This document shows positions 18,090 through 49,618 of a stretch of 64,000 bases of DNA, one piece after another; position 1 is the first letter of the stretch, and each line of letters begins with the position of its first letter. The stretch is from positions 1-64,000 of the forward strand of contig DASXVO010000030.1 of the NCBI GenBank assembly GCA_036504215.1, in the 5' to 3' direction. The notes beneath the pieces are model-generated. The model had not been told where the DNA came from, made no database searches, and saw nothing but the letters and a program-made list of their open reading frames with translations. The DNA is from Vicinamibacterales bacterium (GTDB lineage: Bacteria > Acidobacteriota > Vicinamibacteria > Vicinamibacterales > Fen-181). Both the position numbers and the translations under genes were made by a program.

Positions 18090-19850
18090 ATGCCCGTTCG
18101 GATTGGTGAGCTCCTGCTCAAGGAGAAGCGGATTTCCCCCGACCAACTCCAGGAGGCCTTGAACTACCAGAAGGCCAACGGGGGCAAGCTGGGGTTGAAC
18201 CTCGTCAAGCTCGGGTTCGTGAAGGACGAGGAGATCACCGCCTTGCTCAGCCGGCAGTACGGTGTGCCGTCGATCGACCTCGCCGAATTCGAGATCGACG
18301 GGTCGGTGATCAAGCTCGTGCCGGCCGAAACCGCCCAGAAATACCAGATCCTTCCCCTCAGCCGCGCGGGCGCGACGCTCACGATCGCGATGACCGATCC
18401 GACGAACGTCTTCGCCATGGACGACATCAAGTTCATGACGGGGTACAACGTCGAGCCGGTCGTGGCCTCCGAAGCCGCCGTGATGGACGCCATTCAGCGC
18501 TACTACAAACTGGCGGCCAAGGGGAGTGGGGGCAACGGCAACGGTGTCGGCGGGCAGAGCGCGCTCGATTTCGCGACGGCGGCGCTGCAGGACCTGCCTC
18601 AGATGGACGCCTCCGAAGTGGAGGTGCTCGAGGAACTCGAGGAGATCAGCGTCGAGGCGCTGGCCAGGCAGGGCGAGGAGGCGCCGGTCATCCGGCTCGT
18701 CAACGTGATGCTGATGTCGGCCATCCAGAAGGGCGCGAGCGACATCCACATCGAGCCGTACGAGAAGGAGTTGCGCATCCGGTACCGCATCGACGGTGTG
18801 CTGTACAACATCATGGCGCCGCCGATGAAGTTCCGCGATCCAATCGCCTCGCGCGTCAAGATCATGTCGAAGCTCGACATCGCGGAGAAGCGCCTCCCGC
18901 AGGACGGACGGATCAAGATCCGGTTCAACGAATCGGGCCGCAACAAGGAGATCGACTTCCGAGTTTCCTGCCTCCCGACGCTCTTTGGCGAGAAGATCGT
19001 CCTCCGTCTCCTCGACCGCGACAAGCTGATGCTCGACATGACGAAGCTCGGGTTCGAACCCGAGTCGCTGGCGCGGTACGAGGAAGCGATTGGCCGCCCG
19101 TGGGGCATGGTGCTCGTCACGGGCCCGACCGGCAGCGGCAAGACGAACACTCTCTACTCGTCGATCGCCAAGCTGAACACCCCGGACACGAACATCATGA
19201 CCGCGGAGGATCCTGTCGAATTCAACCTCCCCGGCATCAACCAGGTGCAGATCAGGGATGGCATCGGCCTGAACTTCGCGGCGGCGCTCCGCGCGTTCCT
19301 CCGCCAGGACCCGAACATCATCCTGGTCGGCGAGATCCGCGATTTCGAAACGGCGGAAATCGGCGTCAAGGCGGCGCTCACGGGGCACCTCGTGCTGTCG
19401 ACGCTCCACACCAACGACGCGCCGAGCACGATCAACCGGCTGATGAACATGGGGATCGAGCCGTTTCTGGTGGCCAGCTCGGTCAATCTCATCTGCGCAC
19501 AGCGTCTCGTTCGCCGGGTGTGCAAGGCGTGTGGCGAGCCCGTGCCGGTGCCCGCCCCGGCGCTCACGAAGATCGGCTTCGGGCCAGAGGACGCCGCCTC
19601 GGTCACCCCGCTCAAAGGGCGGGGCTGCGAGAAGTGCAACAACACCGGGTTCAAGGGCCGCCTCGGCCTCTACGAGGTCATGGAGGTCGACGACGAGATC
19701 AAGGAGCTCATCCTGGTCGGCGCGTCGGGCCTCGAACTCAGGCGGAAGGCCGTCGAGCGCGGCATGATCACGCTGCGCCAGAGCGGCCTGCGCAAGATCA
19801 AGGACGGCGTGACGACGGTCGAGGAAGTACTGCGCGAGACGGTGAACTAG
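18090..19850 (+). CDS. pilB: Type IV pilus assembly ATPase PilB
   Basis: 586 residues. It is the cytoplasmic hexameric motor that drives pilus extension. The N-terminal MshEN-type domain (about 1-75: RIGELLLKEKRIS...LQEALNYQ...KLGLNLVKLGFV) resembles the c-di-GMP-binding repeat of MshE. The ATPase core has GPTGSGKT (Walker A), TAEDPVEF (Asp box), ILVGEIRDFET (Walker B) and STLHTNDAPSTINRL (His box). A tetracysteine zinc site follows: CKAC ... CEKC. It is the first gene of pilB-pilT-pilC-pilS-pilR, behind a sigma-54 promoter, with pilT 19 bases downstream. Confidence 0.96.
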   Translation: MPVRIGELLLKEKRISPDQLQEALNYQKANGGKLGLNLVKLGFVKDEEITALLSRQYGVPSIDLAEFEIDGSVIKLVPAETAQKYQILPLSRAGATLTIAMTDPTNVFAMDDIKFMTGYNVEPVVASEAAVMDAIQRYYKLAAKGSGGNGNGVGGQSALDFATAALQDLPQMDASEVEVLEELEEISVEALARQGEEAPVIRLVNVMLMSAIQKGASDIHIEPYEKELRIRYRIDGVLYNIMAPPMKFRDPIASRVKIMSKLDIAEKRLPQDGRIKIRFNESGRNKEIDFRVSCLPTLFGEKIVLRLLDRDKLMLDMTKLGFEPESLARYEEAIGRPWGMVLVTGPTGSGKTNTLYSSIAKLNTPDTNIMTAEDPVEFNLPGINQVQIRDGIGLNFAAALRAFLRQDPNIILVGEIRDFETAEIGVKAALTGHLVLSTLHTNDAPSTINRLMNMGIEPFLVASSVNLICAQRLVRRVCKACGEPVPVPAPALTKIGFGPEDAASVTPLKGRGCEKCNNTGFKGRLGLYEVMEVDDEIKELILVGASGLELRRKAVERGMITLRQSGLRKIKDGVTTVEEVLRETVN

Positions 19851-19869
19851 CCTCAAGGACGAATCATCG

Positions 19870-21003
19870 ATGGCCACACTGCCGGAGCTGCTGAAGAAGA
19901 CCGTGGAAATGGACGGTTCGGACCTCCACATCACGACGAACACGCCGCCGCAGGTTCGCGTGAACGGGAAGCTCCAGCGTCTTCCGATGCCCGAGCTCAC
20001 GGCCGCCGACACCAAGCAGCTCATCTACAGCGTCCTCACCGACGCGCAGAAGAAGCGTTTCGAAGAGACGATGGAGCTGGACTTCTCGTTCGGCATCCGC
20101 GGCATCGCGCGCTTCCGGTGCAACGTCTTCAACCAGCGCGGCGCCGTCGGCGGCGTCTACCGGCTCATTCCCGAGAAGATTCGCGGCTTTCAGGAACTCG
20201 GGCTGCCGTCGGTCATTGCCAGGCTGTGCGAGAAGCCCCGCGGCCTCGTGCTCGTCACCGGCCCGACGGGCAGCGGCAAGTCGACCACGCTGGCGGCGAT
20301 GCTCGACAAGATCAACGGCGAACGTCAGGAGCACATCCTGACCGTCGAAGACCCCATCGAGTACATCCACAACCACAAGGGGTGTCTCGTCAACCAGCGC
20401 GAAGTACACAGCGACACCGCCGGCTTCGGGGCGGCGCTGCGGGCCGCGCTCCGCGAGGACCCGGACATCGTGCTTGTCGGCGAGATGCGTGACCTCGAGA
20501 CGGTGGAAGCCGCGCTGCGGATCGCGGAAACCGGCCACCTCACGTTCGCCACCCTGCACACGAATTCCGCCGCGCAGACGATCAACCGCATCATCGATAT
20601 CTTCCCGGCGCACCAGCAGGGGCAGATCCGCACGCAGCTCTCGCTCGTGCTCGAGGGCATCATCTGCCAGACGCTGCTGCCCCGGGCGTCCCAGCCGGGA
20701 CGCGTCGTCGCGCTCGAGATCCTCATCCCGACCTCGGCCATCCGAAACCTGATCCGCGAGGACAAGGTCCACCAGATCTACTCGTCGATGCAGGCGGGGC
20801 AGGAGAAGGTCGGCATGCAGACGCTCAACCAGTCTCTCGCGACGCTGTACCTGCGACGGCAGATCACGATGGACGTCGCGCTTCAGGCTTCCTCGCACAA
20901 GGACGAATTGGTGGACATGATCAACCGCGGGGTCGGCGTGGTCGAAGGCGCCGGGCTCGGGCGGTCGGCGGGCGTCGTGCCGCCGCCGGTTCGCAAGCGG
21001 TAG
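19870..21003 (+). CDS. pilT: Type IV pilus retraction ATPase PilT
   Basis: 377 residues. It powers pilus depolymerisation for twitching motility. Seen are GPTGSGKS (Walker A), TVEDPIEYIHNHK, IVLVGEMRDLET (Walker B), TFATLHTNSAAQTINRI, and the retraction-specific AIRNLIREDKVHQIYSSMQ motif near residue 295. The N-terminal PAS-like domain begins LPELLKKTVEMDGSDLHITTNTPPQVRVNGKL. Length and motifs are normal. The ATG at 19870 lies 19 bases after pilB. Confidence 0.97.
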   Translation: MATLPELLKKTVEMDGSDLHITTNTPPQVRVNGKLQRLPMPELTAADTKQLIYSVLTDAQKKRFEETMELDFSFGIRGIARFRCNVFNQRGAVGGVYRLIPEKIRGFQELGLPSVIARLCEKPRGLVLVTGPTGSGKSTTLAAMLDKINGERQEHILTVEDPIEYIHNHKGCLVNQREVHSDTAGFGAALRAALREDPDIVLVGEMRDLETVEAALRIAETGHLTFATLHTNSAAQTINRIIDIFPAHQQGQIRTQLSLVLEGIICQTLLPRASQPGRVVALEILIPTSAIRNLIREDKVHQIYSSMQAGQEKVGMQTLNQSLATLYLRRQITMDVALQASSHKDELVDMINRGVGVVEGAGLGRSAGVVPPPVRKR

Positions 21004-21043
21004 GCCTCAGCGGGACGGTCGTTGCACACGGGGAGCACGTGCC

Positions 21044-22255
21044 ATGGCGACGTTTGCATACACGGGACGGAGACGCGGCGGCGAGACGGTGACGGGCGAG
21101 CGCGCGGCCGAGACCATCGAGGCCGCCACCGCCGCACTGCGCCGCGAGCAGATCCTCGTCACGAAGATCGCCCCGGTCAGGGCGAAGGCCGAGACGCCCG
21201 CGAAGGGGTCGAAGGGCCGGGCGGTCGCCGCCAAGAACCTCGCGGTCTTCACGCGCCAGTTCTCGGTCATGATCGACGCCGGCCTTCCGCTCGTGCAGTG
21301 CCTCGACATCCTGGGGAGCCAGGAGGAGGACAAGCACTTCGCGAAGACCATCCACGACACGCGGACCGACGTCGAGGGCGGGTCGTCGCTCGCCGACGCG
21401 ATGAAGAAGCACCCGAAGACGTTCGACCCGCTCTTCACCAACATGATTGCCGCCGGCGAAGCAGGCGGTATCCTCGACACCATCCTCAAACGTCTCGCGG
21501 TCTACATCGAGAAGAACGTCAAGCTGAAGGGGCAAGTGAAGTCGGCCATGATCTACCCGGTCGCGGTCCTCGTGATCGCCTTCGGGGTTGTCGCCATCAT
21601 CCTGTGGAAGGTCATCCCGACTTTCGCGACGATGTTCGCCGGCCTCGGCGCCGATCTCCCGCTGCCGACCCGCGTCGTCATCGCCCTGAGCAACGGGCTG
21701 GTGCGGTTCGCGCCGTTCATCATCGTCGGCATGGTGGCCGCCGTGTTTGGCGTTCGGCAGTACTACACGACCGCCGGGGGGCGCCGCGCCATCGATCGGC
21801 TGATGCTGAACCTGCCGGTGCTCGGGATGATCCTCCGCAAGATTGCCGTGGCCCGGTTCTGCCGCACGCTATCCACGCTCATCAGCTCGGGCGTGCCGAT
21901 CCTCGACGGCCTCGAGATCACCGCCAAGACCGCGGGTAACGCGGTCATCGAGGACGGCATCATGAGCACGCGCAAGAGCATCGAGCGCGGCGAGACGGTG
22001 TCGGCGCCGCTCAAGGAAACCGGGGTGTTCCCGGCGATGGTCACGCAGATGATCGGCGTCGGCGAGGCCACGGGTGCGCTCGACACGATGCTGTCGAAGA
22101 TCGCGGACTTCTACGAGGAGGAAGTGGACACCGCCGTCGCCGGCCTGCTGACGCTGCTCGAACCGATCATGATTGCCTTCCTCGGCATCATCGTCGGCGG
22201 CATCGTCATCGCGATGTACATGCCGATCTTCTCGATGATCTCGAAGCTGACGTAA
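21044..22255 (+). CDS. pilC: Type IV pilus inner-membrane platform protein PilC
   Basis: 403 residues. Two GspF/PilC domains are visible: VFTRQFSVMIDAGLPLVQCLDIL and CRTLSTLISSGVPILDGLEITAKTAGN. Three membrane helices lie near 170-200, 220-245 and 375-400. The first residues MATFAYTGRRRGGETVTGERAAET are the usual PilC opening. The protein couples PilB/PilT to pilin insertion and removal. It lies 40 bases after pilT. Confidence 0.96.
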   Translation: MATFAYTGRRRGGETVTGERAAETIEAATAALRREQILVTKIAPVRAKAETPAKGSKGRAVAAKNLAVFTRQFSVMIDAGLPLVQCLDILGSQEEDKHFAKTIHDTRTDVEGGSSLADAMKKHPKTFDPLFTNMIAAGEAGGILDTILKRLAVYIEKNVKLKGQVKSAMIYPVAVLVIAFGVVAIILWKVIPTFATMFAGLGADLPLPTRVVIALSNGLVRFAPFIIVGMVAAVFGVRQYYTTAGGRRAIDRLMLNLPVLGMILRKIAVARFCRTLSTLISSGVPILDGLEITAKTAGNAVIEDGIMSTRKSIERGETVSAPLKETGVFPAMVTQMIGVGEATGALDTMLSKIADFYEEEVDTAVAGLLTLLEPIMIAFLGIIVGGIVIAMYMPIFSMISKLT

Positions 22256-38752: not shown

Positions 38753-39666
38753 CGCGCCGACGCCGGGTCAGATCGTTCGCGCTGGCCGTGCTGCTCCTCG
38801 CGCTGGTCGGGGCCGCGGTGGGGTTGGTCGTGTGGCGCGACCGCGTGTACGGCGAGCCCGCGCCAGGCGACACGCTGCTCTACGTCCAATCCGGTCGGAC
38901 GCTCCAGCGCCTGTCCCTCTCCTACTCCGCGGCGCTGGCCGACGTCTACTGGATCCGCACCGTGCAGTACTACGGCGGCACCCGCCTTTCCCGAGACCCG
39001 GCGAAGCGCTACGACCTGCTGTATCCGTTCCTTGAGATCACGACGACGCTCGATCCGCGATTCAACATCGCGTACCGCTTCGGGTCGATCTTCCTGGCGG
39101 AGCCGTTTCCGGGTGGCGCCGGGCGGACCGACCAGGCCGTGGCTCTGCTGAAGAAGGGGTTTCAAGCCAACCCGGATCGGTGGCAGTACCTGCAGGATAT
39201 CGGCTTCATCTACTACTGGTGGCAGAATGACTACCGCCAGGCGGCGATGTGGTTCGCGAAGGCCAGTGAGATCCCGGGGACGCCGTGGTGGCTGCGGTCG
39301 CTGGCGGCCGTCACGGCCACGCAGGGGGGCGACCGTCGGAGTTCGCGGATGCTGTGGCAGTCGCTGCGCGACACGGCCGACAACGACTGGATCCGCAATA
39401 ATGCCGTCCTTCGGCTCGGGCAACTCGACGCGCTCGATGCCATCGACGCCCTGACGCGTGTCGTGCGAGACTACGCGTCGAGAACGGGGCGGGTGCCCGA
39501 CTCGTGGGAGCCGTTGATCCGCCTTGGAGTCGTCAGGGCAACGCCGCTCGATCCGGCCGGTGTGCCGTTCGCGATCGACGCCGGCAGCGGCGCGGTCACG
39601 CTGTCGCCCCAATCGCCACTCAACCCGTTGCCCGTGGGCGCGCACGCGGATCAGCCCGCCCGCTGA
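38749..39666 (+). CDS. Membrane-anchored TPR-like protein of the pil ABC operon
   Basis: 305 residues, GTG start overlapping the permease stop (GTGA). One N-terminal helix (SFALAVLLLALVGAAVGLVVW) is followed by helical repeats: LSYSAALADVYWIRTVQYYGGTRL, TDQAVALLKKGFQANPDRWQYLQDIGFIYYWW and YRQAAMWFAKASEIPG read as TPR units. The C-terminus is Pro/Ala-rich. It may correspond functionally to PilG of Myxococcus, the third partner of PilH/PilI, but that rests on position only. Confidence 0.7.
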   Translation: MTRRRRVRSFALAVLLLALVGAAVGLVVWRDRVYGEPAPGDTLLYVQSGRTLQRLSLSYSAALADVYWIRTVQYYGGTRLSRDPAKRYDLLYPFLEITTTLDPRFNIAYRFGSIFLAEPFPGGAGRTDQAVALLKKGFQANPDRWQYLQDIGFIYYWWQNDYRQAAMWFAKASEIPGTPWWLRSLAAVTATQGGDRRSSRMLWQSLRDTADNDWIRNNAVLRLGQLDALDAIDALTRVVRDYASRTGRVPDSWEPLIRLGVVRATPLDPAGVPFAIDAGSGAVTLSPQSPLNPLPVGAHADQPAR

Positions 39667-39674
39667 AGGGGCCG

Positions 39675-40433
39675 ATGCCTGTCGCCATCGCCGCGCTGTT
39701 CGGCCTGATCATCGGCAGCTTTCTGAACGTCTGCATCTACCGGCTGCCGCGCAACCTCTCCATCGTCTGGCCCGCGTCGCGGTGCACGACCTGCAATCGC
39801 AACCTCAGCTGGTACGAGAACATCCCGGTCCTGAGCTGGACGGTCCTTGGCGGACGATGCCGGACCTGTGGTGAGCGGATCAGCGTGGTCTACCCGATCG
39901 TCGAGATTGCGACGGCGGTCGTTTTCGCGCTGACGTACGCGGCGTTCGGCGCGACGCCGCTGTTCGCCGTACGTCTCCTGTTCGGATGCGCCATGATCGT
40001 GCTGTTCGTCATCGATCTGCAGCACCAGATACTGCCCAACGAAATCACGCTGCCGGGCATCGTGGTGGGCCTCGCGGCGAGCACGTTCGTCGAGCCGGGG
40101 CTGGCTGAGGCTGTCATCGGTGCGGTGGCGGGCGGCGGGGCACTGTGGCTCGTGGCCTGGGGGTACGAGCGACTGCGGCACCGGCAGGGCATGGGATTTG
40201 GCGACGTCAAGATGCTGGCGATGATCGGCGCGTTCCTCGGCTGGAAGCTGATGCTGCTCACGCTCATGGCGGCGTCGCTCACGGGCTCGCTGGTGGCCGT
40301 TGCGCTCCTGCTGGCCGGTCGCGCCGATTCGCAGTCGAGACTCCCGCTCGGGACGTTCCTGGCGCTGGCCGCGGTGCCGGTCTGCCTGCGCGGACAGGCC
40401 ATCATCGACTGGTACGTCACGCTCTACCGTTAG
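39675..40433 (+). CDS. pilD: Prepilin peptidase / N-methyltransferase PilD
   Basis: 252 residues from the ATG at 39675. The start has the usual FGLIIGSFLNVCIYRLPR. The cytoplasmic domain carries two CxxC pairs (CTTC, CRTC), the zinc site linked to N-methylation. The aspartyl protease residues lie in VIDLQHQILPNEIT and GMGFGDVKML, among six to seven further helices. It would process the three pilins and the minor prepilins encoded here. It sits nine bases after the TPR gene, in the same operon. Confidence 0.95.
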   Translation: MPVAIAALFGLIIGSFLNVCIYRLPRNLSIVWPASRCTTCNRNLSWYENIPVLSWTVLGGRCRTCGERISVVYPIVEIATAVVFALTYAAFGATPLFAVRLLFGCAMIVLFVIDLQHQILPNEITLPGIVVGLAASTFVEPGLAEAVIGAVAGGGALWLVAWGYERLRHRQGMGFGDVKMLAMIGAFLGWKLMLLTLMAASLTGSLVAVALLLAGRADSQSRLPLGTFLALAAVPVCLRGQAIIDWYVTLYR

Positions 40434-40451
40434 CGGATCGACGACCACCCG

Positions 40452-40485
40452 GCAACATCGACTGACAAGCAACATCGACTGACAA
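40452..40485. repeat. Two 17-bp tandem units with core CGACTGAC
   Basis: GCAACATCGACTGACAA occurs twice in perfect tandem (40452-40468, 40469-40485) between pilD and the sensor kinase gene. The last base is the first base of the kinase ATG. Period and core match the array at 9027-9078. Confidence 0.7.
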
Positions 40486-41753
40486 TGAACCCATCAGCCT
40501 ATGCCCTCGTCGGATTGACCGCGCTCGTGGCCGCGCTCGTGGGGACACTCGTCTTTGCGGTCCTGCGCTTCGGTTCGGCGGTTCGCGACGTGCGTCGGCA
40601 ACTCCACGAGGGTAATGCCGAGCGTGCGTTCGTTGCCGCCGCGCTCGAGGATTCGCTCCGGAACCTCAAGAACCAGGAGCGCGCGATGGCGGCGCGCGCC
40701 GAGACGTCCGAGCGCCTCAGTGCCGAGATCATCACGAGCCTGGCCAGCGGCCTGCTCGTCGTCAGCCTCGACGGCGACGTGCGCATGCTGAACCCGGCGG
40801 GCCGGCGGATCCTGCGACTGACGACGGTCTCGCCGGCCATCGGGTTCAGGGCGCTGCTGGCCGATGCGGCACCGCTGGCGGACCTTGTGGACGAGTGCCT
40901 GACCACCGCCGGCCCAATCGTTCGACGGGCCGTGCCGTTGAGGCGGCCGGACGGCAGCGTCATGCACGTCGGCGTGACCGCCTCGCCGCTGTGCGACGAA
41001 CAGGGTTCGCTGCAAGGGGCGATCTGCCTGTTCTCGGATCTCACGGCGGTGGTCGAGCTCGAGGAACAGCTGCGGCTGAAGGAGACGCTGGCGCGGCTGG
41101 GCGAGCTGACGGCGGGGTTGGCGCACGAATTCCGCAACGGTCTGGCGACCATCCACGGCTATGCCCGGCTCATCGACCCATCGCAACTCACGCCGGCCCC
41201 CGCAACCTACGTCCAGGGGATCCGCGACGAGACCGAGGCGCTCGGGCAGGTGGTCACGAATTTCCTGAACTTCGCGAAGCCGGCGCAGTTGACGCTCGTG
41301 CCGGTGGACATCGGGCATCTGATCGCCCGCGTGACCGACGAATTCCGTGCCGAGGTCGAGGCGCGGCATGGGACGCTCGAGATGCGCGGGACGTTCTCGA
41401 CCGTGGACGGCGACGAGGTGCTGCTCCGGCAGGCCTTCGCCAACCTGCTGCGAAACGCCCTCGACGCGTGCGCCGGTACGGCCGTCGCTCCGAGACTGGT
41501 CGTGGACGGGGTGATCGATCCCGCTCAACACCTCCTGCGCGTCTCGGTCTGCGACAACGGCCCCGGTATCGACCCGGCCATGCGCGAAAAGGTGTTCCGG
41601 CCGTTCTTCACGACCAAGGGGCATGGCACCGGCCTTGGCCTCGCCCTGGTGCAGAAGATCATCGTCACCCACAACGGCCGCATCGCGGCGTCCGAGAGCG
41701 AAACGGGCGGCGCCACCTTCCAGATCGTCCTCCCGCTGTCCGGCGCCAGCTAG
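40485..41753 (+). CDS. PAS-containing sensor histidine kinase
   Basis: 422 residues. A single N-terminal membrane helix (ALVGLTALVAALVGTLVFAVL) is followed by a short coiled region and a PAS domain (ITSLASGLLVVSLDGDVRMLNPAGRRIL). HisKA has GELTAGLAHEFRNGLATIHGYARLI, with His at about residue 214. HATPase_c has NLLRNALDAC, VCDNGPGI and GTGLGLALVQKI. The NtrB/PilS-like make-up, and its place before the minor-pilin operon that ends in an NtrC-type regulator, suggest the two form a pair. There is no strong ribosome binding site, only the repeat. Confidence 0.88.
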   Translation: MNPSAYALVGLTALVAALVGTLVFAVLRFGSAVRDVRRQLHEGNAERAFVAAALEDSLRNLKNQERAMAARAETSERLSAEIITSLASGLLVVSLDGDVRMLNPAGRRILRLTTVSPAIGFRALLADAAPLADLVDECLTTAGPIVRRAVPLRRPDGSVMHVGVTASPLCDEQGSLQGAICLFSDLTAVVELEEQLRLKETLARLGELTAGLAHEFRNGLATIHGYARLIDPSQLTPAPATYVQGIRDETEALGQVVTNFLNFAKPAQLTLVPVDIGHLIARVTDEFRAEVEARHGTLEMRGTFSTVDGDEVLLRQAFANLLRNALDACAGTAVAPRLVVDGVIDPAQHLLRVSVCDNGPGIDPAMREKVFRPFFTTKGHGTGLGLALVQKIIVTHNGRIAASESETGGATFQIVLPLSGAS

Positions 41754-41932
41754 CACCGGGTTCAACTCTTGGGTGGGCGCCGGCGCGCGGGGTCCTGAAA
41801 CCGACGACGGTGCCATTTCTGCCGTTCTCCGCTGCTCCGGGTATGGCGCGGACTACGATCCGTCTCGCCACCCTCCAGCCTCGATTGCAGGATTCCTTCG
41901 GTAACTCGCCGCCCGGCCGGCCTGTCGGTTGA

Positions 41933-41948
41933 TGGAGTGCCAGTTGCA
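41933..41948 (+). promoter_or_regulatory. Possible sigma-54 promoter of the minor-pilin operon
   Basis: TGGAGTGCCAGTTGCA has perfect TTGCA at -12 and GG-N10-GC spacing. The predicted start (near 41959) is only about six bases before the chosen ATG, which argues against it or implies a nearly leaderless mRNA. No GACA/TGTC inverted repeat is found ~104 bp upstream. Confidence 0.35.
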
Positions 41949-41964
41949 CTGGGTATCGGCGAGT

Positions 41965-42534
41965 ATGGAGGCGCTTCCTCGCAGCGTCCCGCGCGACGCG
42001 GGATTCACTCTCCTCGAGGTCACGGTGGCACTCGCCGTCCTGGCCGGCGGCGTCTTCGTCGTCGCGGAGTTGTTCCTCGTGTCTGCCAACGCCGCACGGC
42101 TCGCCCGCGCGAGCGGCGTGGCGACCGCGCTGGCTTCACAAAAGTGCGAGCAGTTGCGCGCCCTGGCGTGGGGATACGACGTTGACGGCCAGGGAGCACA
42201 GGACACGACCAGTGACATCTCCGTGTGGCCCGATCGGCCAGACGGCGGGCTGGGTCTCACCGCGTCGCCGCCCGACGCGCTGTCGCGCGACACGCCGGGG
42301 TTCGTGGACTACCTCGACGCAGATGGCGGATGGATTGGTAACGGGGCCTCGCCACCATTCGGCACCGGGTTCGTCCGCCGATGGTCCATCGAGCCGCTCG
42401 CCGAGAGTCCGGCCGACACCCTCGTCCTCCGCGTGCTCGTGATCGCCTGCCGGGCATCCGGCAATCCGTGCGACACGGCCCATGCCAGCCAGACCGTGCG
42501 CGTCGTCGCGGTGCGTGCGCGGAGGACGGCCTGA
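41965..42534 (+). CDS. PilV-like minor prepilin
   Basis: 189 residues from the ATG at 41965. The leader MEALPRSVPRDAG is cleaved before FTLLEVTVALAVLAGGVFVVAEL, with Glu5. The rest resembles PilV/PulI-type minor pilins: ALASQKCEQLRALAWGYD follows the helix as usual. It heads an operon with three overlapping genes, the pilV-pilW-pilX-pilY1 order of minor pilins that prime pilus assembly. An in-frame ATG at 41932 is possible but would give an unusually long leader. Confidence 0.82.
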   Translation: MEALPRSVPRDAGFTLLEVTVALAVLAGGVFVVAELFLVSANAARLARASGVATALASQKCEQLRALAWGYDVDGQGAQDTTSDISVWPDRPDGGLGLTASPPDALSRDTPGFVDYLDADGGWIGNGASPPFGTGFVRRWSIEPLAESPADTLVLRVLVIACRASGNPCDTAHASQTVRVVAVRARRTA

Positions 42535-43667
42535 TGGTGCGAAGAACTGCCGGCTTCACGCTCGTCGAATTGCTACTGGCCGCGACGATCATGCTGCTGA
42601 TCATGGCGGGCCTCTTCGGGGTTGCCAGCGCGTCGCAGCGTGCCTTCCGGACACAGCCCACAGAGCTCGACATGCAGCAGCGCCTTCGCACGGCGGCCGA
42701 GGTGCTGATCGCAGACCTGTCACAGGCAGGCTCGGGGCCGGTCAACGGGCTCTTCGGCGCTCCTCTTGGGCACACCGTTCCGTCGGTACTGCCGTATCGG
42801 GTCGGATCTCGTGGCGATCCGGTCGGTGTCGATCGATCGGATGCCATCACCGTCATCGCCGCCCTGCCCGGCGCGGCCGCGGTTCCGTTGCGCGACCCGT
42901 TCGCCTCCGGGTCCACGTCGTGGGCGCGCCTCGACTGGGTACCCGCCTGTCCGGCGGGCGATCCAGCGTGCGGCGTGAAGGCAGGTAGTGCGGTGATACT
43001 CGTCGATGGCCACGGCCACGCCGACCTGTTCTCGGTGGCGGACGTGTCGTCCGACCGGCTGCAACTCGCGCCTCGAGGGGCCGTTTCACGGGCGGTCTTT
43101 CCCGCCGGGTCCTGGGTCGTGCCAGTTGGCATCGACGTCTATGCGTTGCGCACCGGTGGCGCGGAGGAAGGGCGGCAACTCGTGCACGGCGACGGCGAGC
43201 AGCCGGAGATGCCTCAGATCGACCACGTCGCCTGGTTGTCCTTCGAGTACTTCGGAGAGCCACAGCCCCCGCGCATGCGGGTCGCGCCGCGCGCCGGTGA
43301 GCCGGTCACGACCTACGGACCGGCGCCGCCTCCCTTCGGAGTGGACGATGACCAGGATGCCTGGCAGGCTGGCGAGAACTGCACGTTCACGGCCGCCAGC
43401 GGCGCGATCGTCCCGCGCCTTCCCCTCCTGGGAAGCGGCCGGCCGGCGCTGGTTCCGCTCTCGTCGGCGAACCTGACCGACGGCCCATGGTGCCGCGATG
43501 GGTCGACGGCCAACCGGTACGACGCCGACGTGCTGCGGATCCGGCGGATCCGCGTGTGTCTGCGCGTCGAGGCTGCCTCCAGTTCGCCGCGCGCGTCTGG
43601 CAGTCTCGTCCCCGAGCAACAGGTGGTGTTCGATGTGGTTCCGCGAACGCTGGCGACTGGAAGGTAG
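42534..43667 (+). CDS. PilW-like minor prepilin
   Basis: 377 residues. The ATG overlaps the previous stop (TGATG). The leader MVRRTAG is cut before FTLVELLLAATIMLLIMAGLF, and TELDMQQRLRTAAEVLIADLSQAGSG is the PilW-type sequence after the helix. A long C-terminal beta-rich part contains CPAGDPAC and several further cysteines that may form disulphides. It is large for a pilin, as PilW proteins are. Confidence 0.82.
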   Translation: MVRRTAGFTLVELLLAATIMLLIMAGLFGVASASQRAFRTQPTELDMQQRLRTAAEVLIADLSQAGSGPVNGLFGAPLGHTVPSVLPYRVGSRGDPVGVDRSDAITVIAALPGAAAVPLRDPFASGSTSWARLDWVPACPAGDPACGVKAGSAVILVDGHGHADLFSVADVSSDRLQLAPRGAVSRAVFPAGSWVVPVGIDVYALRTGGAEEGRQLVHGDGEQPEMPQIDHVAWLSFEYFGEPQPPRMRVAPRAGEPVTTYGPAPPPFGVDDDQDAWQAGENCTFTAASGAIVPRLPLLGSGRPALVPLSSANLTDGPWCRDGSTANRYDADVLRIRRIRVCLRVEAASSSPRASGSLVPEQQVVFDVVPRTLATGR

Positions 43668-44439
43668 CGGGTCGGCCGAGGGCAGCGCGCTCATCGTCGT
43701 CCTGATGGCGCTGTTGCTGCTGTCGGCGATGGCCCTGTCCATGCTGCTCGCGACGATGGTGGAGACGCTCTCCACGACCAACGTGCGCAGCGCCCGTGTG
43801 ACGCTGTGGGCCGCCGAGGCAGGCGTCGAACGGGTGCTGCCCGACCTGCTGCGGGCGCCGGACTGGGACGCCGTACTGTCGGGCGCCATCACATCCGGGT
43901 TCAAGGATGGCCCTTCGTCCGGCCCGCGACAGCTTTCCGACGGTCGAACGCTCGACCTGCAGTCGCTGGTCAACCTCGCGAACTGCAGCGTGGCGTCGGG
44001 CTGTTCCGAGTCGATGCTCGACATGGTCAGCGAGGACAGGCCGTGGGGGCACAACAACCCGCGATGGCAGTTGTTCGCGCATGCGCCGCTCTCGGCTCTG
44101 GGTGGCGCGGAGGACGACGGGTACCTGGTCGTGCTCGTTGCCGACGATCCGTCCGAGAACGACGACGATCCAGTGCGGGACGGACGCGGGCCTGGAAACC
44201 CGGGTGCGGGGGTGCTGATGGTTCGCGCCGAGGCCTTCGGGCCGAACCACGCACACCGCGTGGTCGAGGCCACGATTGCGCGGTTGAACCGCGATGCGCC
44301 AGAAGTCGGGTACGGAGGGCAGCGCGGCGCGGGCCGGTCGTCATCCGACGGCGCGGCCAGGCAGTCCGTTCAGGTGCCTGGCGGGACGATCAATCGGACC
44401 GAATGGGCCGTGCCGGCGGGAGGCCCCGGCGGACAATGA
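43633..44439 (+). CDS. PilX-like pilus assembly protein
   Basis: 268 residues. The gene overlaps pilW by 35 bases and pilY1 by four. The N-terminus GSALIVVLMALLLLSAMALSMLLATMVETL is the PilX-type hydrophobic helix with Gly-Ser-Ala in place of a clear GF|TLIE site. SARVTLWAAEAGVERVLPDL follows, typical of PilX (AExG). The C-terminus is Gly/Ser-rich. PilX-type proteins work with PilY1 in the pilus tip complex. Confidence 0.75.
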   Translation: MWFRERWRLEGSGSAEGSALIVVLMALLLLSAMALSMLLATMVETLSTTNVRSARVTLWAAEAGVERVLPDLLRAPDWDAVLSGAITSGFKDGPSSGPRQLSDGRTLDLQSLVNLANCSVASGCSESMLDMVSEDRPWGHNNPRWQLFAHAPLSALGGAEDDGYLVVLVADDPSENDDDPVRDGRGPGNPGAGVLMVRAEAFGPNHAHRVVEATIARLNRDAPEVGYGGQRGAGRSSSDGAARQSVQVPGGTINRTEWAVPAGGPGGQ

Positions 44440-47400
44440 CGCGACGATGCATCCGGACAACCGTCCTGCTCGTGGTGGTGGGCTGTTCGGCGCGCCCGGC
44501 GCTCGCTCAGCTCGATCCGTTGCTGTTCCTCAAGGGCACTCGGCCGAACGTGCTCATTGGTCTCGACCTGTCGAGTCGCATGCTGCGTGACGAGCACGAG
44601 CGGTACTACGACCCCGTGGTCTACCGCCGGCAGGGCGAAGCCTTCGAGGCCACACTCGGACTCAACAGCGCGATCGCCGTGTCTGCATACCGGCGGCGCT
44701 ACGTGGGGCTGCGGTGGCTTGACCCCTTCGATGGGCCGAGGGCCACCGCCGACAGCATCGAGGTCCTGGGCGACCAGGAACCTGGCTATGCCGGCTTTGA
44801 CGACCGCACCAGGTGGTCCCTTGCCCGGCGGGCCGTCATTCGGGCGATCGAGGGGAACCGCGACTCGACACGCTTCGGCCTGCTGACGACCCGGCTGCCC
44901 CTGCGGCCGGCTGGCGACGATCGTCCGCGCGTGCTCGTGGACGACCTTCGTCGCGCCAGTCCGACGGATACCGGCGAGTCCGGCGTCTGGAGCGCCGGAT
45001 TTCCGGTGGTCGCAGCCGCCGCGGCTTCAGCGCCGCCGGGTGCACCGGTCGTCCGCGCCGATGCTGCCAACGCGAACGGGGTCATCCTGGGTCTCCTTGG
45101 CAAGGACGTGCGCGATGCCGGCGGCCTCGTGCCGGCGGGGGCAGACACGCCGGCGTCGGAGGACGCTCCGTTGGGCGGGCTGCTCGACGACCTCTATGCT
45201 GAGGCCGAGCGTCTCATCAAGGCCGATACGACGTGCCGCAACACCGTGATCGTGCTGGTTGTCGGCGGGGGGAGTTGCCTCCGCCTGTCCCGGATCTGTC
45301 CAGGCGGTCCGCCAGGTTCGCACGGGTTGGCGCTCGACGCGTCCCAGTCTACGTCGTCGCCGTGGCACCCGCTGCCGATGCCGTGGAGCAATTGCGCCGG
45401 GTGGCCAGCGAGAGCGGCGGGCGGTACGTTGAGATCACACCGGGCCAGATCGACGCGGCCGGGGCGCCTCCGGTTGTTCCGGACATCGTGCGCGCGCTGA
45501 ACACCGCCGTCCAACATGCCTTCGTCACGTTCACCGACTTCAACACCGGCCCAACGCCATTGCTGCCGTTCGGACCACTCTCCGAGTACCCAACCGCAGG
45601 CCCCGTGGTCGCCACGGTCAATCTCGCGAACGCGATGGATGCACACGGGCAACTGCTTCAGGGGACGCGTATCGTGTCACCGGACGGTACGGTGCTGCTC
45701 CAGCGCTCCAACGTCGTCATCACGACCGCCCTTGGGCTGCCGGGTTTCGACGGTCGGGTCCGCGCATCCAGAGTTCATCACCCTGTGGCGGACCGGGCAT
45801 CCGCCACGGGCTATCGTTTCGTGGCCGACGGCACCTCGATCTGGACGGCCAACGCTCCTCCCGCGGATCGTCGCAACGTCTTCACCGTCCTGCCGGGCCG
45901 CGGTGTCGTGCCCTTCGCCCGTGGCAATGCGCAGGCGCTCGCGCCCTATCTCGGTGTGGACGACGTCGGCGCGCTGATTGAATTCGTCCGTGCGCTGCCG
46001 CCCGGTGCCGTGACCACCTCCACACCTGCCGTGCTCACGCCGCCGTCGTCGGGGCTGGCGGATGCCGACTATCGGGTGTTTGCCGACTCGCTGCGCGACC
46101 GCCGGGCGTTCTGTTTCGTCGGTGCCGATGACGGAATGTTGCACGCGTTCGACGCCCGAACGGGACTCGAGGTGTGGGCCGTCATTCCGTTCAACCTGCT
46201 GCCGAGGCTTGGTGCGCTCATGGGCGGCCAGCCGGTTGACGACTTCCACTTCTTCGTGGGTGGCTCGCCGCAGCTTGCCGACGTTCGGTGGTCGGACAGA
46301 TGGCACACGCTGCTGGTGTTCGGTGAGGGCCCGGGAGGGACGTTCTATCAAGCCTTCGACGTCACGCTGGAAGGTCTGCCCGCTGCCGTGCCGCCGGACG
46401 TCGATCGACCGAACGATCTGCTCGAGTGGTTCAGTAATCCGCAGCGAATACCGTTTCGGTGGAGCTTCCCGGACTACGCGCATTTCGACGCCACGCTGCC
46501 CGACCACGGCGACATCGGCTCCAACGCGAGTGACCTCGAGAAGACCGTGGGTGAAACATGGTCCACGCCGGCCATCGGCCGCGTCGGCGTTGGGCCCGAC
46601 GCCCGGTTTGTTGCCATCGTTGGTTCCGGCTTCCTCGCGCGCAGCCGTGAGCGGCAGGTCAATCGCGGCGGCACCAAGGCCGGCACTCGCCTGTATCTGC
46701 TCGACGTCGAAACGGGCGCGCCCCTCGATGTGCGCGATGTGGGTGAGGACGGTGTCGCGGAAGACCAGGATCGATGCGCGGCCTCCAGCTGTGACCGGCT
46801 CAAGAATGCCCTGCACGGCGATCCCCTGGCCGTTTCTCGCGTCGGTGGAACCTCCCTGGCGAGCACCTATCTCGGCGACCTCGATGGCCATCTGTGGCGT
46901 TTCGACCTGAAGTCAGGTGACGGCGGCGCGCCTGCGTTCGCCGGGTCGCCCCGTCTGGTCTTCGACGCCGGTGCCGACCACCCGTTCTTTGCCGCCGTTG
47001 CGCGGGTCGAGATTGGCGCGGGCGCGTCGTTCCTGTTCGTTGGGAGCGGCAGCGATCTGCTCCCGGCCACGGGGGCCACGCACGCCTACCGGATGTTCGG
47101 CCTGACCGAGTCGGATGGGGCCGGCAGGCTCGGGTTCGAGATTCCGCTCGAGACCGCGGATGTGAACGGCGTGGACGAGCGGGTGACCGCGTTGCCGGCA
47201 CTCGCGGGTGATGTGGTGTTCTTCACGACAAATGGAATTCCTCGGGGGACTCGTTGCATCGAACCGGAGGCCCGGCTGTACGCCCTCACGTATGACGGCG
47301 GTACTGCCTACGGGCGTGGGGGAAAACCGCGGACAAAGGCCGGTGACAGGCAACCAGTCGCCGTGGTTCCCCGCCGGCGAGCCACGGCTCCCGTCGTGGC

Positions 47401-47521
47401 CGACCGCCATCTGTTCCTGGCAACCGGGAACACCATCCAGGTGTTCGGCGATCCCGAGCACTACAATGAGGAGGCAGGCGTCGCGGGGCTCAGGATTCTC
47501 TCCTGGCGCGAGGTGCGGTAG
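44436..47521 (+). CDS. pilY1: PilY1/PilC-like pilus tip adhesin, interrupted by a frameshift
   Basis: The 5' part runs in one frame from the ATG at 44436 (signal peptide TTVLLVVVGCSARPALAQ; VWA-like start NVLIGLDLSSRMLRDEHERYYDP; NTVIVLVVGGG) and stops at 45500. The 3' part continues in another frame from about 45270 to 47521. It holds the PilC beta-propeller domain: FCFVGADDGMLHAFDARTGLEVWAVIPFNLLPRL, WSTPAIGRVG and YLGDLDGHLWRFDL. One extra G in the G6 run at 45267-45272 would join them into a ~1,028-residue protein. PilY1 promotes pilus assembly and adhesion. It may be an assembly error, a broken gene or a phase-variable one. Confidence 0.85.
45267..45272 (+). other. G6 homopolymer at the pilY1 frameshift
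   Basis: Six consecutive G are the point where the two halves of pilY1 change frame. Seven G would give VVGGGELPPP and restore the reading frame through VPVYVVAVAP. Confidence 0.7.
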
Positions 47522-47607
47522 GATGGGCGACGGGGGACTGCAGTATTGCCGGGATCGGCCGATACAGAATACGAGTGAGTGTCGGCAAGAGCCGGCTGGG
47601 AGTCGCC

Positions 47608-48189
47608 ATGAGGATCTCGACGCTTGCCTGGGTGTTGCTTGCCGCGCTGGGAGTGACGGAAGTGGCCCGGGCACAGACGCTTGCAGACGTTGCGCGGAAG
47701 GAAGAAGAACGGCGGAAGGCCCTCAAGACGTCGGGCAAGGTGTACACGAACGACGACTTGAAGAGGTATCCAGTCTCCACCGCGCCTGCCTCGGAGGGCG
47801 ACAAGGCGGCTGCAGGTGCGGGCAACACGACAGTGAAGCCCGAGGGCGCAGTTGACGCCAAGGCTGGGGCTGCAGCGCAGGCGAAGGAGCAGGCGGCCAC
47901 CGAAGAGAAGGGCGAAGCGTACTGGAGGAACCTGCTCTCCCAGACCCGCACCCAGCTCGAGCGCAGCCAGTCGTTCCTCGAGGCGCTGCAGAGTCGCGTC
48001 AACGGGCTCACCGCCGACTTCTACGCTCGCGACGATCCCGCACAGCGGACGCAGCTCTGGAACCAGCGCACCAAGGCGCTCGAGGAGATGGAGCGTCTCA
48101 AGAAGGACATCGCGGACTCCACCAGACAGCTGAACAAGATCCAGGATGACGCGCGCCGTGCCGGCGTGCCGCCGGGTTGGCTGCGGTAG
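47608..48189 (+). CDS. Secreted coiled-coil protein of unknown function
   Basis: 193 residues from the ATG preceded by GGGAG. A signal peptide (MRISTLAWVLLAALGVTEVARA) is followed by LADVARKEEERRKALKTSGKVYTNDDLKR, a motif I associate with uncharacterised acidobacterial proteins. Then come an Ala/Lys/Glu-rich low-complexity part and a C-terminal coiled coil (about 105-185; AYWRNLLSQTRTQLERSQ, KALEEMERLKKDIADSTRQL). It lies between pilY1 and the NtrC-type regulator in one operon, so a periplasmic pilus-related role is possible but unproven. Confidence 0.7.
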   Translation: MRISTLAWVLLAALGVTEVARAQTLADVARKEEERRKALKTSGKVYTNDDLKRYPVSTAPASEGDKAAAGAGNTTVKPEGAVDAKAGAAAQAKEQAATEEKGEAYWRNLLSQTRTQLERSQSFLEALQSRVNGLTADFYARDDPAQRTQLWNQRTKALEEMERLKKDIADSTRQLNKIQDDARRAGVPPGWLR

Positions 48190-48196
48190 GAGCGGC

Positions 48197-49618
48197 ATGG
48201 CAGTCCGTGCGGCTTCGCCTCCTGTGGCCCGCGCCCCGGTCCTGATCGTCGAGGACCGGGATTCGCTCCGCACGATGCTCCGTCGTGCGCTCGAATCCCA
48301 CGGCCATGCGGTCGTCGAGGCACGTGACGAGCCGGAGGCTGCCGAGCAGTTGCGCGCCGCAGCACCCGCCCTCGTCCTCACCGATCTGCGTCTGCCCCGC
48401 GGCGACGGATTCGCCGTCATCAAGGTCGCCAAGGCCTTCGATCCCGATCTGCCGGTCGTCGTCATGACCGCCTACGGCAGCATTCAGGACGCCGTCGCGG
48501 CCATGAAGCAGGGTGCCCTCGATTTCCTCGCCAAACCCGTCGATCCCGATCATCTTCTGCTCATTGTCGAGCGCGCGATGGCTCAGCGGCGACTCGTGGC
48601 CGAGTACCTGCTGCTGAAGGAGGAACTGGCGTCCCACCGGGGGCTGCCGCAGATCGTCGGCGATGCTCCGGCGCTCAAGCAGGTGTCGGTGGCACTTCAG
48701 CGGGCAGCCGGCACGGAGACGACGGTGCTCCTCGAGGGCGAGAGCGGGACGGGCAAGGAACTGTTCGCCCGCGCGCTCCACGCCTTGAGTCCGCGCAGCG
48801 GCGGTCCGTTCGTGGCGATCAACTGCGCGGCCATTCCCGAACAACTTCTCGAGACCGAGTTGTTCGGCCACGAAAAGGGCGCGTTCACCGGCGCCGGGGT
48901 GCGGAAGCTCGGCAAGTTCGAGTTGGCGGACGGCGGGACGCTGTTCCTCGACGAGATCGGTGACCTGCCGCTGGCGCTCCAGGGAAAGATCCTGCGTGCG
49001 CTCGAGGAGCGCGAATTCGATCGTGTGGGTGGGACCGCGACGATTCGCGTGGACGTGCGCGTCGTGGCCGCCACCAACCGTCAACTTCGGGCCGCGGTTG
49101 CGGCGCGGCAGTTCCGCCAGGACCTGTTCTTCAGGCTGTCGGTATTCCCGATATCCATCCCGCCCCTCCGCGACCGTCGCGAAGACGTCGTGCTGCTCGC
49201 GCGGCACTTCATCGACCGCTTCTGCCGCGAGATGAAGAAGCCCGGGATGTCGTTGTCCGAGCACGCGCAGGCCGCGCTGATGCAATACGGTTGGCCGGGC
49301 AACGTCAGAGAACTGCAGAACTGCATCGAACGGGCGGTCATCCTGACCGACGGCCCCGTCATCCATCCGCACCACCTCAACCTCCTGGGCGCGGAGGCCC
49401 CCGGGGCGGCGGAGGCGCGTGACCCCTGGGGCGCGATCGACCTGTCCGGTTCGCTCGCCGGCGCGATGGGGCGGGTGCTTCGTGACGCCGAGCGAGAGAA
49501 GATTGTGCGGACGCTGGCCGAGGCGAGCGGCGACGCCGGTCTCGCGTCGGAGATGCTCGGCATCGCGTACCGGACGTTGCTCGCCAAGATCAAGGAGCAT
49601 CGTCTGGGCGACGGCTGA
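48197..49618 (+). CDS. NtrC-family sigma-54 response regulator (second)
   Basis: 473 residues from the ATG with TAGGAG upstream. The receiver Asp is at about 63 (VLTDLRLPRGDG). The AAA+ domain has GESGTGKE, GAFTGA and FLDEIGDL, and RQDLFFRLSVFPI. The C-terminal Fis helix-turn-helix region is EKIVRTLAEASGDAGLASEMLGIAYRTLLAKIKEH. It closes the minor-pilin operon and probably works with the kinase at 40485. It differs from PilR in the linker and helix-turn-helix, so it likely reads other sites. It is convergent with aroB, five bases apart. Confidence 0.92.
   Translation: MAVRAASPPVARAPVLIVEDRDSLRTMLRRALESHGHAVVEARDEPEAAEQLRAAAPALVLTDLRLPRGDGFAVIKVAKAFDPDLPVVVMTAYGSIQDAVAAMKQGALDFLAKPVDPDHLLLIVERAMAQRRLVAEYLLLKEELASHRGLPQIVGDAPALKQVSVALQRAAGTETTVLLEGESGTGKELFARALHALSPRSGGPFVAINCAAIPEQLLETELFGHEKGAFTGAGVRKLGKFELADGGTLFLDEIGDLPLALQGKILRALEEREFDRVGGTATIRVDVRVVAATNRQLRAAVAARQFRQDLFFRLSVFPISIPPLRDRREDVVLLARHFIDRFCREMKKPGMSLSEHAQAALMQYGWPGNVRELQNCIERAVILTDGPVIHPHHLNLLGAEAPGAAEARDPWGAIDLSGSLAGAMGRVLRDAEREKIVRTLAEASGDAGLASEMLGIAYRTLLAKIKEHRLGDG

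Follow-up and report, generated by a model that had tools for sequence, protein, structure and literature searches.

The PilY1/PilC proteins are the tip adhesins of type IVa pili. In Myxococcus xanthus, the C-terminal domain of PilY1 carries the interaction with the minor pilins (PMC7541494), and the last eight residues of PilY1 have been predicted to add a strand to the PilX sheet, a PilX-PilY1 strand addition that is so far a modelling prediction (PMC11046646, PMC13190605). In Neisseria, the homologous gene pilC switches via a poly-G tract (PMC5953494, PMC13190605); in a published screen for such switches at least nine G were required, and the pilC tracts themselves are G9-20 (PMC5953494). 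In this study we focus on a pilY1 gene interrupted by a frame break, located in a type IV pilus cluster of an acidobacterial genome of 5.92 Mb in 90 contigs. The stretch analysed, hereafter the window, comprises positions 1-64000 of contig C30 and has 67% GC.

The broken pilY1 gene and its neighbours

The cluster of the window comprises pilB, pilT, pilC, a PilS-like kinase, an NtrC-type regulator and two pilins, and further pilD, a PAS kinase, pilV-, pilW- and pilX-like genes, pilY1, a coiled-coil-type protein and a second NtrC-type regulator. The intact motor and platform genes pilB, pilT and pilC are found at 18090-22255 (+). On the same strand, the prepilin peptidase PilD (39504-40433) and the PAS histidine kinase used as upstream syntenic marker (40485-41753) are followed by a PilV-like minor pilin (41929-42534), a PilW-like minor pilin (42534-43667) and PilX, a minor pilin here of the kind that lacks the tail and goes with PilY1 (43633-44439, start approximate). 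Beyond pilY1, the downstream syntenic markers are the coiled-coil-type protein (47575-48189, +), which has no Pfam match, and the NtrC-type response regulator (48146-49618, +). Apart from pilY1, the pilus genes examined are intact and the pilus operon of the window contains no further broken gene; both pilY1 and pilX exist as one copy in the source genome. Between pilY1 and the next gene, a conserved motif, CGGCCGATA, is found at about 47546-47570; it is also present upstream of the next gene in four other genomes (G001-G004, with one mismatch in G001), where pilX precedes, and is possibly a promoter element.

The pilY1 gene (44436-47521, +) consists of two overlapping open reading frames, one frame apart. 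ORF1 starts with the ATG at 44436 and ends at a stop at 45500; it encodes the signal peptide and the N-terminal part of a VWA domain up to 45272, the remainder (45273-45500) being an out-of-frame run-on. ORF2, in the frame one base back from that of ORF1, is open from 45203 to a stop at 47521, with a GTG at 45233; homologous from about 45272, it encodes the rest of the VWA domain, the PF05567 beta-propeller and the C-terminus, and has no signal peptide of its own. The G tract at 45267-45272 (+), exactly six G, comes after GGC. According to codon statistics, coding potential follows the first frame as far as about 45295 and the other frame from about 45340 onwards.

The overlap of ORF1 and ORF2 alone is not significant at 67% GC; what is significant is that the protein is conserved to either side of the break and that the junction matches. 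When translation is carried across the tract, ORF1 and ORF2 together yield a protein of 1028 aa that aligns end-to-end and in a single frame with most relatives of the order; its identity to full-length relatives is 33-51%. At the junction, the first frame of the window ends in VLVVGGG and the second continues with E, where the relatives have VLVVGGGE, VLIVGGGE and similar forms. Because the relatives spanning the site are single-frame (all but one in the order) with VVGGGE, the window pilY1 is one base short at the G6 tract relative to them.

The propeller scores 46-47 bits against PF05567 (T4P_PilY1), above the gathering cut-off of 28.1, and a profile built from the relatives matches 3hx6 at 7.9e-27. 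For the VWA domain at the break, the Pfam match is weak and sub-threshold and the fold match is clear: the closest PDB matches of a model of a relative's N-terminal part (mean pLDDT 78) are mostly VWA domains, and its strand at residues 262-268 ends just before the break site. On this model, the break falls inside the VWA domain, just after the predicted strand matching those residues. A preliminary description of the window had proposed that two PilY1-like halves overlap in different frames and that one added G at 45267-45272 joins them at a VWA strand. Both points are borne out, the first by the ORF coordinates, the codon statistics and the single-frame relatives, the second by the VVGGGE match and by the strand that ends just before. 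The window protein retains conserved positions at close to normal rates: 29/30 for the N part, 10/10 for the second half of the VWA domain and 139/154 for the C part, of which relatives keep from 134/154 to 143/145 (134/154 in the same-family copy of G006).

Origin of the frame break

A pilY1 match was found in 30 of the 162 genomes of the order. The gene is not detectable in four congeners, which have pilV-pilW-pilX and the flanking genes in the same order, the next gene coming directly after pilX. The window genome falls outside these four in a tree of nine shared proteins (bootstrap 100), and intact pilY1 is present at the same place in same-family genomes of other genera. This genus can thus do without pilY1, and loss of the gene in the window is plausible for that reason. 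Two other copies in the order are broken elsewhere in the gene. In G056 (C319, 2102-4968), pilY1 lacks about 100 residues and changes frame, inside the VWA domain; this deletion led us to reject it as an instance of the same break. In G033 (C556, 6258-8473), pilY1 is spread over three frames, apparently decaying, beside a module with a tailed PilX. Degradation downstream of the tract in relatives had been put forward as a sign of decay, a test that is not simply applicable here: the gene is intact in most relatives, broken at some other place in one or two, and missing from the congeners.

We favour a recent loss-of-function frameshift at the G run in the VWA domain of the sole pilY1, at a probability of about 0.48. 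The break would be recent because both halves of pilY1 are otherwise intact. The one-base frameshift would leave a truncated N-terminal PilY1 fragment, and the propeller half, devoid of a signal peptide, would probably not be exported; the tip adhesin would be lost, including the strand at its C-terminus that is predicted to complete PilX. On this reading, the cells themselves would carry the deletion, it would have become fixed, and PilY1 would no longer function. Against loss, the other pilus genes examined are intact and PilX has no strand of its own, so that a cell without a working pilY1 would be expected to lose its pili; this is easier to reconcile with an error, or with an event of very recent date, than with an old pseudogene.

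A local consensus error, in which pilY1 is unbroken in the cells but one base of a G-rich stretch was dropped from the assembly, is a serious rival; we rank it second and hold it somewhat less probable than the recent frameshift. The site is indeed a homopolymer after GGC, and such an error would agree with the conservation of both pilY1 halves and with the intact pilus genes. A two-strand coding model was applied in pieces to 19% of the genome (1.15 Mb), in place of a single-strand scan whose roughly 80 candidates were mostly spurious opposite-strand shadows. The two-strand model returned eleven candidate same-strand frame changes, most of them judged ordinary gene overlaps from start codons. 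Three were judged broken genes. Besides pilY1, they are a cas4-cas1-like gene whose Cas1 part changes frame, not at a homopolymer (C16, about 177997, -), and an aminotransferase-like gene whose middle part is apparently gone, with a frame change (C28, about 134699, +), both identified by eye. Only pilY1 among the candidates adjoins a homopolymer of at least five. The same 1.15 Mb contain 207 G/C runs of at least six, about one per 5.5 kb, and pilY1 is the only strong break at one of them, which counts against a consensus error. When one-base losses were simulated in G/C runs of at least five, the detector recovered 60 out of 103 (about 58%); a systematic homopolymer error would still show despite the missed 40% or so, and is disfavoured. 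Also against an error, G-run lengths drop smoothly with no truncation at long runs, and the contig set, in which many contigs measure 1.5-2.5 kb, suggests short-read binning; since the assembly looks short-read, a systematic long-read error is unlikely.

The preliminary description had left error, decay and phase switch side by side; decay and local error remain, while the third has lost ground. In a reversible switch, the tract would gain and lose G in the population and thereby switch the tip adhesin between two states, on and off, in the manner of Neisseria pilC. The break does lie exactly at a G tract in a homologue of that gene. However, six G are fewer than the nine of the Neisseria screen (PMC5953494), in keeping with the earlier remark that the tract is short for strong slippage. 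It is not conserved either: in the relatives the longest nearby G/C run is of 3-6 bases, nearly all copies being in frame. Runs of this length being as common as they are, the tract is ordinary for this genome, and we consider a switch improbable. Still less credit can be given to programmed -1 frameshifting or transcriptional slippage that would yield full-length PilY1 from the DNA of the window. The shift is -1 and at a G run, but the in-frame heptamer is C GGG GGG and not X XXY YYZ, downstream RNA structure is no more than in shuffled sequence (z = +0.67), and no relative keeps the shift; ribosomal frameshifting was rejected on the last two grounds. Finally, a stable arrangement of the halves as separate genes, for which the GTG at 45233 could speak, is very improbable, as it would split the VWA domain just after a strand, leave ORF2 without a signal peptide, and is seen in no relative.

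The predicted C-terminal strand of PilX and PilY1

Taken alone, the frameshift adds little, being a further case of gene inactivation or mis-assembly; what follows is of more interest. The window PilY1 ends in GLRILSWREVR and a stop (47486-47521, +), a putative strand completing PilX, and its relatives end in GVRILSWRE(I/V)R or close variants. In the congeners, it is PilX that ends in PRVLAWKEVR, PRVISWRAVR or PRVLSWTEVR, a tail resembling the PilY1 C-terminus (RVLSWREVR-type). This tail is absent from the PilX of the window (43633-44439).

We surveyed 70 PilX loci of the order (L168-L237). At 21 of them PilY1 follows and PilX has no tail; of the 49 without a following PilY1, 45 are tailed by a simple pattern and four carry weaker look-alikes. 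Tail and PilY1 together occur at none of the 70 loci and are thus mutually exclusive. With a scoring matrix derived solely from PilY1 ends, the best match falls at the C-terminus of PilX, above the 99.9% quantile of PilX body windows, in 44 of the 49 loci without PilY1 and in 0 of the 21 with it. The tail tryptophan is invariant in 31 aligned PilX proteins. In the AlphaFold model of a congener PilX, the tail forms the last strand (207-218), after a strand at 191-204, with a pLDDT of about 93 at 211-219. This model fits the published strand-addition prediction (PMC11046646, PMC13190605) as well as the M. xanthus data on the PilY1 C-terminal domain (PMC7541494), and we infer that the strands of PilX and PilY1 occupy the same position.

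It is rather probable that the strand completing the top minor pilin is movable in this order, being the last of PilX or of PilY1, never of both and apparently never of neither, with PilY1 as an optional tip module that donates the missing strand of PilX. Since its PilX is tail-less and its PilY1 frame-broken, the window operon has no in-frame strand; if the pattern is true, the window genome would be an exception that should not make pili, the model predicting from the tail-less PilX that the genome as written cannot complete the pilus tip.

Two genomes bear on how the tail may have moved. In G047 (C312), a minor-pilin module whose PilX is tailed lies in tandem, at the same locus, with a module that has PilY1 and a PilX lacking the tail; in G033, both module types are in tandem, as inferred across two contigs. 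With these tandem modules, and with the tail present in PilX of many families, the idea that the congeners' tail is the scar of a single deletion fusing PilX to the PilY1 end was downgraded, and differential retention of tandem modules is equally possible as deletion-fusion. A PilX tree, weakly resolved, needs six state changes.

Comparison with known pilus systems

The frame break shares with Neisseria pilC phase variation a homologous gene and a frame break at a G run. It differs in having six G, the length in the single genome available, instead of 9-20, and in lying inside the VWA domain. In its architecture, the window gene shares with the tip adhesins of type IVa pili (PF05567; 3HX6; M. 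xanthus PilY1.3, with VWA) the propeller, the N-terminal VWA fold, the signal peptide and the place after pilV-pilW-pilX, and is set apart by the frame broken in the VWA domain and by its own C-terminal tail.

The strand pattern bears on an open question, the attachment of PilY1 at the pilus tip and the priming of pili without PilY1, and we did not find it described in a limited literature search. The mutual exclusion over 70 loci is independent evolutionary support for PilX-PilY1 strand addition. As in the system described by Treuner-Lange and colleagues in 2024 (PMC11046646; see also PMC13190605), the PilY1 C-terminus is the predicted donor strand of PilX, whereas in this acidobacterial order the equivalent strand appears to be part of PilX itself when PilY1 is absent.
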